From a virus: 57,863 bases of DNA. Location: positions 1 to 57,863 of IMG/VR virus record IMGVR_UViG_3300036770_002369, one strand, 5' to 3'. Shown here in pieces: positions 1,239-57,649 of the stretch. Both the position numbers and the translations under genes were made by a program. Each line of letters begins with the position of its first letter. Positions within the stretch are counted from its first letter, which is position 1. The notes below the pieces were generated by a model that was given only the letters and a program-made list of their open reading frames with translations, searched no databases and was not told where the DNA came from.

Positions 1239-1283
1239 ACCTGAGCTATCCGCGAGACCCCCCGGTTTAGCCACAATCGACAC
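1239..1283 (-). promoter_or_regulatory. phage promoter-like repeat, copy 1 (leftward)
   Basis: On the minus strand the core TCGATTGTGGCTAAACC is followed by a variable stretch and GGATAGCTCAGGT, immediately before the ATG at 1238. It is one of five copies in the left arm. It forms an inverted arrangement with copy 2 (cores at about 1264-1282 and 1297-1315), giving a divergent promoter pair. Confidence 0.65.
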
Positions 1284-1296
1284 CTTCACCTGTTTT

Positions 1297-1340
1297 TGTC
1301 GATTGTGGCTAAACCAGCCACGGTCGCGGATAGGTTAGGC
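1297..1340 (+). promoter_or_regulatory. phage promoter-like repeat, copy 2 (rightward)
   Basis: The core TCGATTGTGGCTAAACC at 1299-1315 is followed by GGATAGGTTAGGC (1328-1340) directly abutting the ATG at 1341. The box TAGGTT fits a TANNNT minus-10 element 4 nt from the start codon. The transcript would then have almost no 5' leader. Confidence 0.65.
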
Positions 1341-1655
1341 ATGAACAGCAAGGTGGCGATGACGAACGACGGTGTTGAGGTGGTCCCCGGAATGGGGGCC
1401 ACCGTGTCGGTGGGTAGCGACTGCTACCCGTACACGGTGGTTGCGGTGCTCTCGCACCGCAAGTGCCTGGTGAGGCGAGACAACTTCCGCCTCGACGAGC
1501 ACCACTACGGAATCGGCTTCGAGCCCGACTTGGGGGCCGTCCCCGAGGAGGCCACCCGGTGCCGCGACGGCAGGTGGGTGGTGGGCCGGACGAAGGCGGA
1601 CGGCACCCGCCTCACCATCGGGGTGCGGCGGGCCTACCTGGACCCCCACTTTTGA
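1341..1655 (+). CDS. conserved small phage protein ending RRAYLDPHF
   Basis: This is a 104-aa protein of unknown biochemical function. An early GMGATVSVGSDCYPYTV segment and a C-terminal GRWVVGR...LTIGVRRAYLDPHF segment match a small protein family that I recall as widespread in large phages and their hosts (beta-rich, usually ending RRxYxDPxF). That is recognition from memory. The start is the ATG at 1341, right after the promoter-like box and without a Shine-Dalgarno sequence, so leaderless translation is likely. The in-frame MSIVAKP extension is the DNA of the promoter repeat. A strong hairpin follows 6 nt after the stop, suggesting a monocistronic unit. Confidence 0.8.
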   Translation: MNSKVAMTNDGVEVVPGMGATVSVGSDCYPYTVVAVLSHRKCLVRRDNFRLDEHHYGIGFEPDLGAVPEEATRCRDGRWVVGRTKADGTRLTIGVRRAYLDPHF

Positions 1656-1661
1656 GCCCGG

Positions 1662-1696
1662 TCAGGGAGGGTGTGGTTTCGGCACACCCTCCCTGA
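1662..1696 (+). terminator. strong hairpin terminator
   Basis: TCAGGGAGGGTGTG (1662-1675) pairs with CACACCCTCCCTGA (1683-1696): a 14-bp perfect stem with a 7-nt loop, 6 nt after the stop of the gene at 1341-1655. It is not followed by a T-run, but the stem is long and GC-rich, and a new promoter copy follows at 1765. Confidence 0.65.
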
Positions 1697-1764
1697 AATC
1701 CGTGCCGGTCGTAGCCGGGAGGGATCTAAGAATCCTCATGGGGTTCTTCGCCCTGGGCGGACGA

Positions 1765-1808
1765 TGTCGATTGTGGCTAAACCCATCGGGGTTCCGGATA
1801 GCTTAGAT
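1765..1808 (+). promoter_or_regulatory. phage promoter-like repeat, copy 3
   Basis: The sequence TGTCGATTGTGGCTAAACC (1765-1783) is followed by GGATAGCTTAGA (1796-1807). Downstream lies a leader that can fold GGGGG-AGCGA-CCCCC (1811-1825), immediately followed by a GGGAGG ribosome binding site (1826-1831) for the ATG at 1837. The gene is not in frame with the MSIVAKP reading of the repeat, so the repeat is conserved as DNA. Confidence 0.7.
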
Positions 1809-1836
1809 ATGGGGGAGCGACCCCCGGGAGGTTTCA

Positions 1837-2028
1837 ATGGCGGACAACACGGACAAGCTCCTCACCCTGATGTTCAAGGCCAAGAGCCCGGAAGTTCGTG
1901 ATGCGATTTGGGGCCTGATCCGGCAGAGACTTGCCGGTCGAGCGGTCGCTCCCGACGCCCGCCTAAACAAGTCGGCGGTCTACCGCCAAGCGGTCAAGAT
2001 CGCGGAGTCGGCTTCCCGCGCCCCTTGA
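1837..2028 (+). CDS. small helical hypothetical protein, 63 aa
   Basis: This is a 63-aa, mainly helical protein of unknown function, with two predicted helices (TDKLLTLMFKAK, PEVRDAIWGLIRQRL) and a basic C-terminal helix (KSAVYRQAVKIAESASR). Its size and composition would allow a DNA- or protein-binding role, but no family is recognised. The start at 1837 is set by a GGGAGG site 5 nt upstream, located directly behind a GGGGG/CCCCC leader hairpin. The same leader is repeated before the gene at 2174. It is probably transcribed alone, from promoter copy 3 to the paired hairpins at 2036-2090. Confidence 0.7.
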   Translation: MADNTDKLLTLMFKAKSPEVRDAIWGLIRQRLAGRAVAPDARLNKSAVYRQAVKIAESASRAP

Positions 2029-2035
2029 TCCGTCC

Positions 2036-2090
2036 GGGGGCTCAGGGACCGAGCCCCCTAGAACGGGACGGACGTCCCGTTCCCCCTTTT
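2036..2090 (+). terminator. double hairpin with T-run, intrinsic terminator
   Basis: The first stem is GGGGGCTC/GAGCCCCC (2036-2043 with 2051-2058). The second is GAACGGGAC/GTCCCGTTC (2061-2069 with 2074-2082) with a 4-nt loop, followed by CCCC and TTTT at 2087-2090. The second hairpin is a convincing intrinsic terminator for the 1837 gene. It ends 11 nt before promoter copy 4. Confidence 0.75.
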
Positions 2091-2101
2091 CGCACGGACG
2101 A

Positions 2102-2146
2102 TGTCGATTGTGGCTAAACCAGTCGGGTTGGTGGATAGCTTGGACA
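2102..2146 (+). promoter_or_regulatory. phage promoter-like repeat, copy 4
   Basis: TGTCGATTGTGGCTAAACC is followed by GGATAGCTTGGAC. The leader again carries the GGGGG-AGCGA-CCCCC hairpin (2148-2162) and GGGAGG (2163-2168), identical over more than 20 nt to the leader of copy 3. The downstream gene is out of frame with the repeat. Confidence 0.7.
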
Positions 2147-2173
2147 TGGGGGAGCGACCCCCGGGAGGGCGAG

Positions 2174-2392
2174 ATGGTTGAGATGGCAGTTCGGAAGTTC
2201 GGCTTCAGCGTCGTCGAGGAGGGCTACGCCCTGTTCGACGACGCCACCCGCTCGTGGTGGGTGAGCCCTGCCCGAGACGTGGCCCGTCTCGGGCAGATGG
2301 TGGAGGAGGGGGTGCCGGACGCCTACAGCGTCTGGTGCTCGGAAACGAGCGCCCGCGAGATGCCGTCGGGCTGGACGCCCGACGAGGGCTGA
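2174..2392 (+). CDS. small hypothetical protein, 72 aa
   Basis: This is a 72-aa protein of unknown function. It starts with a beta-like stretch (VRKFGFSVVEEGYALFDDATRSWWV), followed by a helix (ARDVARLGQMVEEG) and an acidic tail. The ATG at 2174 is 5 nt from the GGGAGG site; a second ATG at 2183 would be 14 nt away and is less likely. The composition suggests a small soluble alpha/beta protein. It precedes the FGE-fold gene by 55 nt of hairpin-forming spacer and could be cotranscribed with it, since no further promoter-like box is seen before 2448. Confidence 0.7.
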   Translation: MVEMAVRKFGFSVVEEGYALFDDATRSWWVSPARDVARLGQMVEEGVPDAYSVWCSETSAREMPSGWTPDEG

Positions 2393-2394
2393 AC

Positions 2395-2430
2395 GCCCCT
2401 TTCCCGTAAGGGGCTCTGATCTAGGAGCCC
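2395..2430 (+). promoter_or_regulatory. overlapping alternative hairpins before the FGE-fold gene
   Basis: GCCCCTT/AAGGGGC (2395-2401 with 2408-2414) and GGGCTC/GAGCCC (2411-2416 with 2425-2430) share bases, so only one can form at a time. This could be a terminator or an attenuator-like switch between the 72-aa gene and the FGE-fold gene. A ribosome binding site, AGGAGAG, follows before 2448. Confidence 0.4.
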
Positions 2431-2447
2431 GATGGAGTAGGAGAGAC

Positions 2448-3014
2448 ATGATTGAACGAAAGATGATCCGCATCCAGGGAGGCACCTACCTGATGGGCGC
2501 CTCCCCCGACGACACCGAGGCGTTCAATTCCGAGCGCCCCCAGCACGAGGTCGCCGTGGGCGACTTCGAGATCGAGAACCTGCCCGTGACCAACGGGCTC
2601 TGGTTCGAGATCATGGGCGGCGACGAGCCCTTGCCCGAGGAGCGGGATCTGCCCAAGGTTTACGTTTCGTGGGTCGAGGGTGCAGCGTTTATGAACGCTC
2701 GGAGCGAGCGTGAGGGGCTGAAGCCCGTCTACAGCTTCGCCCCGGACGGAACCGTGACCGAGGATTCCGAGGCGGACGGCTACCGCTACCCCTCCGAAGA
2801 GGAGTGGGAGTACGCGGCTCGGGCCGGGACGACGACGCCTCGCTACGGCAAGGTCGAGGACATCGCCGGGGTCGACACCAACTCGACCCCGCCCGTCGGG
2901 ACGAAGCAGCCGAACGCCTGGGGGCTCTACGACATGCTCGGTCTCGTCTGGGAATGGACCGGGACCGTGTACGAGAGCTACGCGGAAAAGATCAAGCGGC
3001 GAGGTGCGAAGTGA
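2448..3014 (+). CDS. FGE-sulfatase / C-type-lectin-fold protein lacking its C-terminal segment
   Basis: This 188-aa protein of the formylglycine-generating-enzyme (SUMF1) fold begins with the family hallmark MIRIQGGTYLMGAS, then ERPQHEVAVGDFEI, PVTNGLWF, YRYPSEEEWEYAARAGT, and NAWGLYDMLGLVWEWTG near residue 165. In this family the last approximately 40 residues normally read RGGSW...R...GFRxAR. Here the frame stops just before that element, and the element is supplied by the next ORF in the -1 frame (GTGA overlap at 3011-3014). Phage members are usually not enzymes but ligand-binding proteins, and the missing segment is where diversity-generating retroelements diversify them. The AGGAGAG site lies 5 nt before the ATG. 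It could be a genuine split protein, a substrate for frameshifting, or a truncated gene. Confidence 0.85.
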   Translation: MIERKMIRIQGGTYLMGASPDDTEAFNSERPQHEVAVGDFEIENLPVTNGLWFEIMGGDEPLPEERDLPKVYVSWVEGAAFMNARSEREGLKPVYSFAPDGTVTEDSEADGYRYPSEEEWEYAARAGTTTPRYGKVEDIAGVDTNSTPPVGTKQPNAWGLYDMLGLVWEWTGTVYESYAEKIKRRGAK

Positions 3015-3145
3015 TCTACTACATCCTGCGGGGCGGTTCGTGGTTCAGTCAACCCTCGTATGCGCGTGCGTCCTACCGTAACAGTCACACGCCCGCGTAC
3101 CGCGTCGAGATCGTCGGCCTCCGCTGCGCTAGGAGGGCGAGATGA
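3011..3145 (+). CDS. variable C-terminal FGE-fold cassette 1 (44 aa)
   Basis: This 44-aa ORF starts with GTG overlapping the stop of the previous gene (GTGA). A GAGGT ribosome binding site 5 nt upstream lies inside that gene. It encodes the FGE-fold C-terminus: ILRGGSW at 5-11, seven variable residues, RAS at 19-21, one variable residue, R23, four variable residues, P28, R31, then GLRCARRAR at 36-44. Most of the variable codons end in C or T, as expected if they derive from AAC or AAT codons in a DGR template. It could act as a separately translated complementing peptide or as a -1 frameshift extension of the upstream protein. Its terminal AGG AGG codons form the Shine-Dalgarno of the next cassette. 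Confidence 0.75.
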   Translation: MIYYILRGGSWFSQPSYARASYRNSHTPAYRVEIVGLRCARRAR

Positions 3146-3276
3146 TCCCCTACATCTTGCGTGGCGGTTCGTGGGACTTCATTCCCATGTTCTCGCGCGC
3201 GTCCGACCGTTTATGGGGCGTGCCTGCGAAACGCTACGTTGGCGTCGGCCTCCGATGCGCTAGGATGGCGGGGTGA
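3142..3276 (+). CDS. variable C-terminal FGE-fold cassette 2 (44 aa)
   Basis: This is a second copy of the same 44-aa module, starting at an ATGA overlap with cassette 1 and preceded by AGGAGG at a 5-nt distance. Its framework matches cassette 1 position by position (ILRGGSW, RAS, P28, A29, R31, V35, GLRCAR), with no length change. The differing residues fall at 12-14, 16-18, 22, 24-27, 30 and 32-34, plus residue 3 and the last three positions. That is the pattern of DGR variable regions. The DNA ends are nearly identical between the two cassettes, whereas the middle differs at first and second codon positions. It ends in RMAG rather than RRAR. Confidence 0.75.
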   Translation: MIPYILRGGSWDFIPMFSRASDRLWGVPAKRYVGVGLRCARMAG

Positions 3277-3491
3277 CCCCTTCTATCTTGCGCCCCAAGT
3301 CGGGCCGAGACCGAACCTGGGCCAACGTCCCCCGAAAGGCCCGGGTCGTCTACCGGACCCTGAAGCGTGTCTTTCGGGGCGGAAGCTCCCATCTCGCACC
3401 TCACGCTTTCAGCGTGTCTAGTCGAGGTAAGGCACCCTCTCCAGAAAGCAGCGTTTACATCGGCCTCCGGTGCGCCCGTCGGGCAAGATGA
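3273..3491 (+). CDS. divergent third FGE-fold cassette with N-terminal insertion (72 aa)
   Basis: This ORF starts GTG within a GTGA overlap with cassette 2. The first seven residues (MTPSILR) match the start of cassette 2 (MIPYILR), but about 28 unrelated basic residues follow before FRGGSS, a variable stretch, and GLRCARRAR at 64-72. From RGGS to GLRCAR it has exactly the same length as cassettes 1 and 2. Several framework residues are changed (W to S, RAS to SVS, conserved P and R lost), so it looks like an older or decaying copy. Its own ribosome binding site is weak. It could be a pseudogene-like donor or a functional divergent version; I cannot tell which. Confidence 0.6.
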   Translation: MTPSILRPKSGRDRTWANVPRKARVVYRTLKRVFRGGSSHLAPHAFSVSSRGKAPSPESSVYIGLRCARRAR

Positions 3492-3573
3492 ACCGCAGCC
3501 GCTCGCTACACAACGACCACCCGAGCCCCCTAGATCGAAAGAACTGGACGTTCGCCCCTTCCCGCACGGGCGA

Positions 3574-3617
3574 TGTCGATTGTGGCTAAACCAGTCGGGT
3601 TGGCGGATAGGTTAGAC
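3574..3617 (+). promoter_or_regulatory. phage promoter-like repeat, copy 5
   Basis: TGTCGATTGTGGCTAAACC (3574-3592) is followed by GGATAGGTTAGAC (3605-3617) abutting the ATG at 3618. There is no leader and no Shine-Dalgarno sequence, as for copies 1 and 2. Between 3492 and 3573 no convincing gene is seen. Confidence 0.7.
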
Positions 3618-3986
3618 ATGACCAACCTCGCCAACCTCGCCAACCTCGCCAACCTCGCCAACTTCACCGGGCTCCGCGTGGACGTCCTCACCGTCGCGGA
3701 GATGAGGCTGATGTTCCGAGTCCTGCGGAACATCAGCATCAACAACGGGGGGGTCGAGAGCCCCCGAGAGTTCGAGGAACTCTGCCGCCTCTGGATCCCG
3801 GAGGGGGACGAGTCCCCCTCCGCGTGGGTTCACGCGGCCTACGCGGTGGCGCTCCTTACCCGCCGCGTGGAGGACGAGCCTGAGTTTGAGGACGACGCCG
3901 AGGACGAGGCCGAGGACGAGGCCCGGTGGGCCGAAGACGCCGCCCTCCACGCCGCCGAGCAGGCGGCTCGCCGCACGGGCGAGTGA
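3618..3986 (+). CDS. hypothetical protein with Asn-Leu-Ala repeats and acidic tail, 122 aa
   Basis: This is a 122-aa protein of unknown function. Residues 2-16 are repeated Asn-Leu-Ala triplets encoded by a 9-bp tandem repeat. The middle (RVDVLTVAEMRLMFRVLRNISI) looks helical, and PSAWVHAAYAVALL is a second helix. The tail from about residue 80 is strongly acidic (EDEPEFEDDAEDEAEDEA). Such a tail could mimic nucleic acid or bind basic partners, but this is only composition. The start is the ATG abutting promoter copy 5, probably leaderless. It is followed by a long-stem hairpin at 3999-4043 and faces the convergent sigma gene. Confidence 0.7.
   Translation: MTNLANLANLANLANFTGLRVDVLTVAEMRLMFRVLRNISINNGGVESPREFEELCRLWIPEGDESPSAWVHAAYAVALLTRRVEDEPEFEDDAEDEAEDEARWAEDAALHAAEQAARRTGE
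3624..3668 (+). repeat. 9-bp tandem repeat (AACCTCGCC) in coding sequence
   Basis: Four perfect copies of AACCTCGCC (3624-3659) and one degenerate copy (3660-3668) encode Asn-Leu-Ala repeats at the start of the 122-aa protein. Gain or loss of units keeps the frame, so length polymorphism without inactivation is expected. Confidence 0.85.
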
Positions 3987-4199: not shown

Positions 4200-5096
4200 C
4201 TATTGGACCCAGCGGGCAGCTTGCTCCTTGAGGAGTGCCAATGCTCGGGAGACGGTGCCCTTCGGAAGATGAAGCTGGGCGGCGATCTCGATGCGGTTCA
4301 GCCCCTGATGGACGAGCGGCAAAATCTGGATGGCCACCCCCAGGTCCGGCCCCGAACCCGAAGCCCGTAGATGACGCAAGAAATCAGCCTCGGCATCCAC
4401 GGACTCCGTCATCCTCGGGTCCGACGAAGCGACCTCCCCTACGTCCTGGTCCTCACCGTCTGCTGCCGGTAAGCCCACCTGCTCTACCTGACGACGCCGA
4501 TTCTCCCGACGATGGAAGTTCGACAGGATGCACGAACAGACCATGTGGACGTAGTGGCCGAACGACGACTTTGAGGCGTCCCAAGCGCACCGACCCGCGT
4601 TCCTCGCCAACAGCCCCCGGTACACCTCCTGAAGCACGTCCTCCGGATCGTAGCCCGCTGCGAAGATGCGCGTCCCGAACCCGGCGAAGAGGAGCTTCCG
4701 CACCTCGTCCGCCCGGTTCTCCAAGTCGATGCCCGTAGGCCCCTTGGACGGCACCACGGTGAGCCCAGGACGCAAGACCGCCCCCGTGGAGGGAGGAGCG
4801 ACCGTCAGCCCCTCAGAAGCCGTCGTAGGTGCTCTACGGCATATCTCCGTGAGACTCGCCTCCGGCACCACCGAGCGACTCGACCAAGCCCCCAGTCGAA
4901 AGTAGCGGTCGAACGTCCAGTTCTTACGACCCCGACCCGCGACCGAGTCCAGCAGCGAGCGTACCGACGTGTAGATCGGGCCTGCCTCACCTACCTGGTA
5001 TCCGAACGAAAGAACCTCGACCCGACGACCCCCGTCCTCGTGTCGTGTGTATAGGACGGCGGGCTTTCCCGTGCTGATCTTCTGAACAGAGTGCAA
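4200..5096 (-). CDS. phage sigma-70-family factor with unusual N-terminal domain
   Basis: This 298-aa protein resembles an ECF-type sigma factor with a long N-terminal extension. Region 2 spans roughly 127-202 (YDPEDVLQEVYRGLLARN, then SSFGHYVHMVCSCILSNFHRRENRR). A region 4 helix-turn-helix lies at about 250-293 (LNRIEIAAQLHLPKGTVSRAL). The two are joined by an acidic linker. ECF factors are typically about 200 aa; the extra approximately 120 residues include the motif NWTFDRYFRLG near 59-69, whose function is unknown. The start is TTG at 5096, supported by a GGAGGT site 6 nt upstream. It would direct RNA polymerase to phage promoters, and the recurring GATAG boxes are plausible targets (inference). 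It is transcribed leftward from a near-consensus promoter at 5224-5252. Confidence 0.8.
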   Translation of the reverse strand: MHSVQKISTGKPAVLYTRHEDGGRRVEVLSFGYQVGEAGPIYTSVRSLLDSVAGRGRKNWTFDRYFRLGAWSSRSVVPEASLTEICRRAPTTASEGLTVAPPSTGAVLRPGLTVVPSKGPTGIDLENRADEVRKLLFAGFGTRIFAAGYDPEDVLQEVYRGLLARNAGRCAWDASKSSFGHYVHMVCSCILSNFHRRENRRRQVEQVGLPAADGEDQDVGEVASSDPRMTESVDAEADFLRHLRASGSGPDLGVAIQILPLVHQGLNRIEIAAQLHLPKGTVSRALALLKEQAARWVQ

Positions 5097-5487: not shown

Positions 5488-6255
5488 TTAGGCGGGGACT
5501 CCGGGGGCCTTCCACTTACCCGACATGACCGGACCTTCGGATCCGTCCCATTTGCCTCCGACGATGACGGCAGTTCCGCCGATCTGGGCTTTGCCGGTGA
5601 CGTGGGCATCGCCAGAGACTTTGGCATCGCCAAAGACATGGGCTCTGCCGGAGATGTTCGTATCGCCGTAGACATGGGCTCTGTCATAGACCTCGGCGTA
5701 GACGGAGATATGGGCGTCGCCGTAGACCTTGGCGATTTCATAGACCTTGGCGTTGCCGGAGACCTTGGCTTTGTCATAGACGTGGGCTCCGTCGTAGACC
5801 TTGGCGTCACCGAAGACCTGGGCGTTGCCGAAGACATGCGCTTGCTCAAAGACCTTGGCATCGCCGTAGACCTCGGCATCGCCATAGACCCATGATCTAC
5901 CGTAGACCTGGGCGTTTCCAGAGATTGCGGCGAGTCCGAAGACCTTGGCGAAACCGTAGACCTTAGCGTCGTCAAAGATTACGGCTTTGTCGTAGACATC
6001 GGCGTGGCCGTAGACCTCGGCGTGGCCGTAGACCTCGACTTCGCCGTAGATTTGTACGGTGTCGTAGATCGTGGCGCTGTCGTAGACTTGGGCATCGCCG
6101 TGGGCGTAGGCATCACCGTAAATGTGTTTTCCGTAGACGTTGACTTCCCCTCTAGCCCTACGGCTCAGGGAGGCAAGAATAGCCCTTCTCTCAGGATGCC
6201 CTACGGGAAGGGAGGCAGCTTTACGGATCAGGTGGGAACGAGCGGTTCGGTTCAT
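5488..6255 (-). CDS. hexapeptide-repeat left-handed beta-helix protein, paralogue A
   Basis: This 255-aa protein has a short basic N-terminal tag (MNRTARSHLIRKAASLPVG, to about residue 35). Roughly 30 consecutive hexapeptides of the type AKVYGD/AQVFGN follow (about residues 37-228), and it ends GSEGPVMSGKWKAPGVP. The six-residue periodicity with small residues at the inner turn predicts a left-handed parallel beta-helix. No acyltransferase catalytic residues are evident, so a structural or binding role is more likely. A close paralogue in inverted orientation lies at 56864-57649, with nearly identical ends and shuffled middle repeats. A GAGAGGA site precedes the ATG at 6255, and the conserved promoter-like block lies at 6284-6311. 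The opposite strand also has long open frames, an artefact of the repeats. Confidence 0.85.
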   Translation of the reverse strand: MNRTARSHLIRKAASLPVGHPERRAILASLSRRARGEVNVYGKHIYGDAYAHGDAQVYDSATIYDTVQIYGEVEVYGHAEVYGHADVYDKAVIFDDAKVYGFAKVFGLAAISGNAQVYGRSWVYGDAEVYGDAKVFEQAHVFGNAQVFGDAKVYDGAHVYDKAKVSGNAKVYEIAKVYGDAHISVYAEVYDRAHVYGDTNISGRAHVFGDAKVSGDAHVTGKAQIGGTAVIVGGKWDGSEGPVMSGKWKAPGVPA

Positions 6256-56275: not shown

Positions 56276-56812
56276 ATGTCCAATCTACGATCTAAAATCG
56301 TCCGCCTCGCCCATCAGAATCCGGAACTCCGGCCCCACTTGCTTCCCCTGATCAGCCGCACCGCTGCGGGAAAGCATCCCTTGAACCCCGAAGAATCCAT
56401 GATGACCTTCGTCCTGGTACTCGAACAGGACGTTCTCGCGAACTCCGCTGACGAAGGTGATGAACTCGCTATCGAAGTCCAAGAGAATGAGAAAGCCCTC
56501 GAAAGACTAGAGGAAGATGCTCTCAGGAAGCTCTCCTCCATGTTCGGTGTCAAGATTGATAACGAGGGCATGGGACCCCAACACGGTCTGATCTGCAAAT
56601 TCTCCGTGGATTCGTGGAATGACGTGGCCCGAGTGAACAAGGCCATCAATCAGAACCGCATCGGTAGCGGTGACAAGATGGATACTGATGTCCCCTTCTT
56701 TGCCGCCCGGGGTTTCGTCCTCTACCCCGAAGGCATCAACGGACCCCGCTATGGCAAGACTTCTAGGGCAGTCGGTGATCTGGACCAGTGGCTCAGGGAT
56801 AACAAAGAATAA
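56276..56812 (+). CDS. tagged acidic hypothetical protein, 178 aa
   Basis: This 178-aa protein of unknown function begins with the tag LRSKIVRLAHQNPEL...HLLPLI (residues 4-26), almost identical to the start of the antisense protein at 22319-22768. The rest is alpha/beta with an acidic helical stretch (EVQENEKALERLEEDALRKL), a strand GLICKFSVDSW and a C-terminal helix (VGDLDQWLRDNKE). There is no membrane segment. It is expressed from its own promoter-like block, apart from the structural operon. The shared tag suggests that it goes to the same place as the other tagged proteins, which cannot be determined from sequence. Confidence 0.8.
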   Translation: MSNLRSKIVRLAHQNPELRPHLLPLISRTAAGKHPLNPEESMMTFVLVLEQDVLANSADEGDELAIEVQENEKALERLEEDALRKLSSMFGVKIDNEGMGPQHGLICKFSVDSWNDVARVNKAINQNRIGSGDKMDTDVPFFAARGFVLYPEGINGPRYGKTSRAVGDLDQWLRDNKE

Positions 56813-56818
56813 CCTCTC

Positions 56819-56854
56819 CCCGCTAGGTTCCCGATAGCCCTCCCTAAGCGAGAG
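56819..56854 (+). promoter_or_regulatory. CGATAG-type promoter-like element upstream of beta-helix gene B
   Basis: CCCGCTAGGTTCCCGATAGCCC (56819-56840) followed by TCCCTAAGCGAGAGGA repeats the block found at 6284 and 56221. The minus-35-like hexamer here (CCTCTC) is poor, so the conserved part is the TAGG...CGATAGCCC region plus the ribosome binding site. Confidence 0.6.
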
Positions 56855-56863
56855 GACTATCCG

Positions 56864-57649
56864 ATGAACCGAATCGCACGATCCCACCTGATCCGTAAAG
56901 CCGCCTCCCTTCCCGTAGGGCATCCTGAGAGAAGGGCTATTCTTGCTTCTCTGAGCCGTAGGGCTTCCCAGGAAGTCAACGTCCGTGGGGTACACATTCA
57001 AGACAACGCCCAAGTCCTCGATCAAGCACAAGTCTTCGACAACGCTAAGGTCTTCGGCAACGCCAAAGTCTACGGGAACGCCAAGGTCTACGATATAACC
57101 GCCGTCTACCGCAACGCCCAGGTCTACGACTTCGCCAAGATCTACGGCAACGCCCAGGTCTACGACAAAGCCAAGGTTTTCGACCAAGCCGAAATCTATG
57201 ACAAAGCCCAGGTCTACGACAACGCTAAGGTCTTCGAGGGTGCCAAGGTCTACGGCCACGCCGAGATCTATGGCGATTCCCAAATCGGCGGATCCGCCGA
57301 AATCTACGGCGAAGCAAAGGTCTTCGGAAACGCCGAGGTCTCCGGAAAAGCCCAGGTCGGCTACAAAGCCGAAATCAGCGAAGGGGCCAAGGTCCACGGC
57401 AACGCTAAGGTCTCAGGCAAAGTCCAAATCTACGGCGACGCCGAGGTCTACGACGACGCCAAAGTCAGCGAAGGAGCCAAGGTTTTCGGAAAAGCCGAGG
57501 TCTTCGGCGGAGCCAAGGTCTGGGGCAAAGCCGAAATCTACGGCGAAGCCCAGATCGGCGGGACTGCGATTATCCTTGGAGGCAACTGGGATGGATCTGA
57601 AGGCCCGGTCATGTCCGGTAAGTGGAAGGCCCCCGGAGTCCCTTCCTAG
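56864..57649 (+). CDS. hexapeptide-repeat left-handed beta-helix protein, paralogue B
   Basis: This 261-aa protein has the N-terminal tag MNRIARSHLIRKAASLPVG, about 33 hexapeptide rungs (AKVYGN, AQVYDK, AEIYGE and similar, about 37-235) and the end GSEGPVMSGKWKAPGVPS. It is a paralogue of the leftward 255-aa protein. The first approximately 35 and last approximately 30 residues are almost identical, while the repeat core differs in order and content, as expected for unequal recombination among 18-bp repeats. The fold should be a left-handed beta-helix; no acyltransferase site is visible. GAGAGGA lies 7 nt before the ATG. Its stop overlaps the stop of a convergent gene on the minus strand. Confidence 0.85.
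   Translation: MNRIARSHLIRKAASLPVGHPERRAILASLSRRASQEVNVRGVHIQDNAQVLDQAQVFDNAKVFGNAKVYGNAKVYDITAVYRNAQVYDFAKIYGNAQVYDKAKVFDQAEIYDKAQVYDNAKVFEGAKVYGHAEIYGDSQIGGSAEIYGEAKVFGNAEVSGKAQVGYKAEISEGAKVHGNAKVSGKVQIYGDAEVYDDAKVSEGAKVFGKAEVFGGAKVWGKAEIYGEAQIGGTAIILGGNWDGSEGPVMSGKWKAPGVPS

Follow-up and report, generated by a model that had tools for sequence, protein, structure and literature searches.

A gene of the FGE-sulfatase (PF03781) type is divided, in the window analysed here (a linear virus record of 57.9 kb, taken at its full length), into a body that stops short of its variable segment and a row of three small ORFs, cassettes 1 to 3, that encode this segment separately. In our judgement the chances are about even that the locus specifies a split binding protein of the C-type-lectin (CLec) fold, FGE subtype, whose body and cassettes would be made separately from one mRNA, assemble non-covalently and present several binding faces at once. 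The locus lies within a block of small genes close to the left end of the window, which holds only this one FGE locus and no intact full-length FGE gene.

The body (2448–3014, + strand, 188 aa) matches positions 3–197 of the 255-position PF03781 profile (E 7e-30) and lacks the C-terminal variable segment. An AF2 model of the body alone has a pLDDT of 85.7 and a pTM of 0.80, with the last 20 residues weaker. Its best match among solved structures is TvpA (2Y3C, E 3e-9), the variable protein of a Treponema diversity-generating retroelement (DGR); human FGE was also matched. The missing end of the profile is found in cassettes 1 and 2, both 44 aa and on the + strand. Cassette 1 (3011–3145, VIYYILRGGSW...GLRCARRAR) covers positions 214–255 (E 1.2e-5; 50.8 bits with our C-terminal HMM) and cassette 2 (3142–3276, MIPYILRGGSW...GLRCARMAG) positions 215–255 (E 0.0018; 46.3 bits). 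In profile coordinates, the split between body and cassette falls exactly at the boundary of the variable region. FGE-type CLec proteins of DGRs carry a variable region of 40–45 aa at the extreme C-terminus, and in the DGR CLec fold the N- and C-terminal strands are paired and the final residues invariant (PMC6328139). Each cassette therefore corresponds to one variable region together with its last strand. Cassette 3 (3273–3491, + strand, 72 aa) is different: it has a 28-aa N-terminal insertion and a degenerate framework (FRGGSS...YIGLRCARRAR, with RGGSS and an R to S change), scores only 7.5 bits with the C-terminal HMM and has no match in a Pfam search. It is partly decayed, with the GLRCARRAR end intact. 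The coordinates and architecture that the earlier note gave for 2448–3491 are thus correct, and its statement that the FGE ORF ends before its C-terminus, which three following ORFs encode, holds for the body and cassettes 1 and 2 and more weakly for cassette 3.

All three junctions are 4-base stop-start overlaps (GTGA at 3011, ATGA at 3142, GTGA at 3273; all + strand), and each cassette therefore lies at −1 relative to the preceding frame. A Shine-Dalgarno sequence precedes every overlap: GAGGT(G) with a 5-nt spacer between body and cassette 1 (3001–3014), AGGAGG with a 5-nt spacer between cassettes 1 and 2 (3131–3145), and a 4-mer only, AGGA, with a 7-nt spacer between cassettes 2 and 3 (3262–3276). 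The signals expected for translational coupling, a stop-start overlap with an upstream Shine-Dalgarno sequence, are thus present with a 5-mer at two of the three junctions and a 4-mer at the third; a 5-mer 4–9 nt ahead, as at cassettes 1 and 2, is found at just 2.8% of the RTGA sites in the window. Across the whole unit cassettes 1 and 2 share 71% DNA identity, and since this homology runs exactly from overlap to overlap, the duplicated unit includes the following copy's ribosome-binding site. A sequencing or assembly indel that split an ordinary full-length FGE gene would need to be only one base long at the junction of body and cassette 1, but it would leave cassettes 2 and 3, the identical type of overlap at three junctions and the Shine-Dalgarno sites unexplained, and we regard it as highly improbable.

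The locus appears to form a transcription unit of its own. The repeat TGTCGATTGTGGCTAAACC-N-GGATAGCTTGGACATG occurs in five exact copies in the window, all inside 1264–3592, where 0.02 would be expected. One promoter-like copy (2102–2165, + strand) probably drives the FGE-cassette operon, and the next (3574–3637, + strand) marks the operon boundary. The unit between the copies at 2102 and 3574 comprises a 72-aa ORF with no family match (2174–2392, + strand), a presumed member of the operon, followed by the FGE body and cassettes 1, 2 and 3. Within 1264–3592 the TGTCGATTGTGGCTAAACC copies are followed by a GGATAGsTTrGayATG-like sequence, and one pair is divergent. The repeats probably serve as a promoter, specific to the phage, of small accessory genes. 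Nearby on the opposite strand (4200–5096, −) is the gene for a protein of 298 aa that weakly resembles HTH domains and the sigma factors of phage RNA polymerase (phrog_1740, E 1.7e-4); it might read the repeated promoter.

We infer from the sequence that the peptides would be synthesized, would complete the fold non-covalently and would yield a ligand-binding product. In such an arrangement the 188-aa body would contribute strand β1, the helices and most of the core, and a cassette (44–72 aa) would add the segment that binds ligand and, as the last strand, β5, which pairs with β1 in the CLec fold. The cassettes would be translated from the mRNA of the body by stop-start coupling (Shine-Dalgarno sequence plus GTGA or ATGA), each serving as an alternative variable end, so that one message could give several combinations of body and cassette with different binding faces. 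The array would grow as a 131-nt unit is duplicated in tandem, each unit bringing along the ribosome-binding site for the copy that follows. In favour of a split protein count the position of the split, the coupling signals at cassettes 1 and 2, the repeat unit that begins and ends at the overlaps, the conserved framework beside variable codons that all differ, the confidently modelled, TvpA-like body, and the arrays and cassette exchange in other phages described below. Peptides of 44 aa may be unstable on their own, which speaks against a split protein, as do the partial decay of cassette 3 and the fact that no close relative was found in IMG/VR in which to follow turnover or selection.

Variation between cassettes 1 and 2 was analysed at the positions of the 12 Asn codons in a genuine DGR template (accompanied by its reverse transcriptase, in L039/L040), which aligns with both cassettes without gaps. 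All 12 codons differ at these positions, with 26 of 36 nucleotides changed against 10 of 69 elsewhere (Fisher p 8.5e-9). Among the remaining 23 codons only three change the residue and five differ synonymously. The framework of cassettes 1 and 2 thus looks constrained and the variable sites look close to saturation. In the 12 variable codons base 1 differs in 10, base 2 in 9 and base 3 in 7, and because of the third-base differences the two cassettes are unlikely to be recent copies of a single AAY template. In other arrays, bases 1 and 2 are highly variable and base 3 is nearly constant (95% C or T), a clear adenine-type signature, and for this reason the cassette modules probably arose by DGR-type diversification, either long ago in the present phage or elsewhere. 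Such mutagenesis would then have set the hypervariable codons at some earlier time or within a donor, and recombination between phages would have altered them afterwards. The earlier note was right that most differences fall at variable positions and that variable codons often end in C or T (19 of 24, against about 60% in the genes of the phage), but the counts above do not agree with its claim that the changes lie mainly at the first and second bases.

These patterns bear on the possibility that the locus is a decayed tandem duplication, in which a frameshift broke the FGE gene, its 3′ end was duplicated and the remains are now drifting. Cassette 3, with its lost framework residues and its insertion, would fit such a course, as would the finding that none of 36 related phage records contains an FGE gene, so that the locus is dispensable cargo. 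Against it stand the apparent constraint on the framework beside near-saturated variable sites in cassettes 1 and 2, repeat boundaries placed exactly on start-stop overlaps with Shine-Dalgarno sequences, and the recurrence of a similar architecture in unrelated phages (see below). We therefore consider drift after duplication rather unlikely.

The related records were found through the giant tail ORF (35 loci) and the sheath initiator (3 loci). The nearest relative has 75% identity at the sheath initiator and its record stops before reaching the locus; the 485-kb huge-phage record LR745208 is distantly related to the window. No close relative of the locus itself was found in IMG/VR, the best match to the body being about 40%, and a scan of IMG/VR with the cassette sequences gave nothing close.

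Neither of the DGR components that we looked for was detected at the locus. RVT_1 searches found no reverse transcriptase in the window, in contigs G001–G004 or in 23 array-type contigs. Nor was one found in the 36 related records, which include LR745208. The best match to the cassette framework in the window outside cassettes 1 and 2 is 59%, namely cassette 3, and template searches in G061 and G064 were negative. This agrees with the earlier observation that the window shows no reverse transcriptase or template repeat; as the records searched are mostly fragments, a reverse transcriptase located elsewhere or acting in trans is possible. Of the proposal that the locus is a cassette version of a DGR target, what stands is the detachment of the modules from the scaffold, their arrangement in an array and the TvpA-like body, whereas the lack of a reverse transcriptase and of a template in these searches and the third-base changes count against it.

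Detached cassette arrays of 2–15 copies occur in several other, unrelated phage contigs; the loci came from scanning IMG/VR and, once, bacterial genomes with protein queries and were screened with the C-terminal HMM and a body HMM. The arrays support the view, already put forward in the earlier note, that variable modules have been detached from a CLec scaffold and arrayed. In G001–G004, 5–9 cassettes surround a body that likewise stops short of the segment, and several of these cassettes have GGAGG and an ATGA overlap. Cassette arrays with Shine-Dalgarno sequences and ATGA or GTGA starts are found in L138–L141, L196 (8 cassettes) and L197, with smaller sets in L153 and L173. Phage-type genes are present in G002, L142 and L144. 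In L197 (2717–5567) 15 tandem variable cassettes, many of them separate ORFs, lie upstream of the body, and the body ORF has a cassette in frame at its N-terminal side, as it does in L138–L141 and L144. The order of cassette before body is possibly a circular permutation; a model of the permuted cassette and body of L197 left the position of the cassette uncertain (pLDDT about 30), which also speaks against a split protein.

Comparison of closely related arrays gives some indication of how they change. The bodies of G001, G002 and G003 are 93–100% identical per 100-bp block, yet G002 and G003 have the downstream array in common but differ in most of the upstream one, and for G001 and G002 it is the other way round. 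Since bodies are conserved while arrays differ, the cassettes are the exchanged module. In the near-identical phages L154 (5540–5990) and L155 (583–900), L154 has one additional exact tandem copy of a cassette, a difference that shows array expansion or contraction. Cassette 1 is identical in L156 and L162, and their second cassettes differ at 18 first or second bases, at no third base, in 12 variable codons, a pattern of substitutions that is a DGR-like signature. Observations of this kind, the differing arrays beside conserved bodies, the extra copy in L154, the partial sharing between L156 and L162 and the 15 cassettes of L197, would also suit an archive of silent cassettes, from which recombination would bring variable ends up to a body or fuse them with it, as in the vls and pilin systems, and for which it would be of little consequence whether the detached copies are translated. 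Such a store has no need of translation signals, but every cassette in the window has its own start and an exact overlap, the first two with a good Shine-Dalgarno sequence, and the window offers no full-length FGE gene as recipient. We consider an archive unlikely. Three roles were considered at the outset (archive, alternative C-termini or complementing peptides), and the way in which translation is wired agrees better with the latter two than with an untranslated store.

A sister class of loci carries signals for −1 frameshifting. In 17 gene loci (L142, L147, L148 with two genes, L150–L152, L154–L156, L160, L162, L167, L198, L211, L392 and L144) the frame of the body stays open beyond the first cassette, itself in the −1 frame. 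The next cassette is back in frame 0 in 14 of the 17 (pattern ‘20’); L154 has the pattern ‘201’, L144 five −1 cassettes and then one in frame, and L147 a single −1 cassette. In nearly all of these loci a further cassette terminates the open 0 frame. Immediately before the first cassette, all 17 loci, many of them interrelated and thus not independent events, have G GGA AAG, A AAA AAG or G GGG GAG in the frame of the body, and 13 have an SD-like 5-mer 6–16 nt upstream of the heptamer (in practice 9–10 nt, mostly GGAGG or GAGGG). Among 198 FGE junctions that are in frame, three have a heptamer and none a heptamer with a Shine-Dalgarno sequence. No stop interrupts frame 0 across the −1 cassette in any of the 12 distinct cases, compared with 60 open frames in 106 G+C-rich controls. 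A downstream hairpin can be folded in many of the loci, with mostly unremarkable z-scores. In E. coli, both G GGA AAG and A AAA AAG are very prone to frameshifting (PMC5009743), and the shift in dnaX uses an upstream Shine-Dalgarno sequence and a downstream stem-loop (PMC6787027). G GGG GAG is a weaker slippery candidate, in which only the P-site codon would re-pair well. The sister class thus apparently uses programmed frameshifting between alternative hypervariable C-termini.

Frameshifting of the same kind in the window would fuse the body to cassette 1 and to the cassettes beyond it. Cassette 1 does sit at −1, like the first cassette of each of the 17 loci in the sister class, but a search of the junction found no slippery heptamer, the stop codon of the body lies inside the overlap and permits no reading on, and the Shine-Dalgarno sequence is at initiation spacing. 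We consider frameshifting here improbable and, for want of a heptamer at the junction, assign the locus to the coupled class.

The fold, the C-terminal variable segment of 40–45 aa and variable sites in the register of the L039 template connect the split locus with the FGE/CLec variable proteins of DGRs (TvpA, 2Y3C; TaqVP, 5VF4; Mtd). In the latter the variable region is fused into one ORF and rewritten by reverse transcriptase from a template, whereas in the window it stands apart as several small ORFs, and neither a reverse transcriptase nor a template was seen. In the vls and pilin silent-cassette systems and in shufflons, gene conversion or inversion alters one expressed gene. They resemble the window locus in purpose and in having many alternative copies of a variable segment beside a constant part; the wiring differs in that the copies in the window have their own translation signals. 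The sister class resembles the −1 frameshifting of dnaX and lambda gpG-T (Shine-Dalgarno sequence about 10 nt upstream, A AAA AAG or G GGA AAG and often a predicted downstream hairpin), but it would choose between hypervariable C-termini rather than add or remove a fixed domain, and it is absent from the window. In the open-access literature we found no report of split, arrayed or frameshifted CLec variable segments.

On balance we lean towards the view that phages have evolved, more than once, a choice at the level of translation between hypervariable ends for one CLec scaffold from one mRNA, either through stop-start coupling, with exchangeable split peptides as the product, as in the window, or by dnaX-like −1 frameshifting, with cassettes shuffled between phages and adenine-type mutagenesis in some lineages. 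Known variable CLec proteins are single chains rewritten by reverse transcriptase. A split or cassette design that recurs across phages, with no reverse transcriptase detected, would mean that the wiring of translation can also keep diversity in store and present it side by side during a single infection. The window locus would then be a natural case of split-protein complementation, and the sister class one of programmed frameshifting that chooses between binding specificities.

The window as a whole is a fragment of a tail module, with giant structural ORFs and a sheath-initiator/baseplate protein. At both ends of this module lie repetitive proteins with runs such as VYGDAKVYGHAEVYG (5488–6255, − strand, and 56507–57397, − strand), the second of which matches LED_rpt with an E value of 4e-4.
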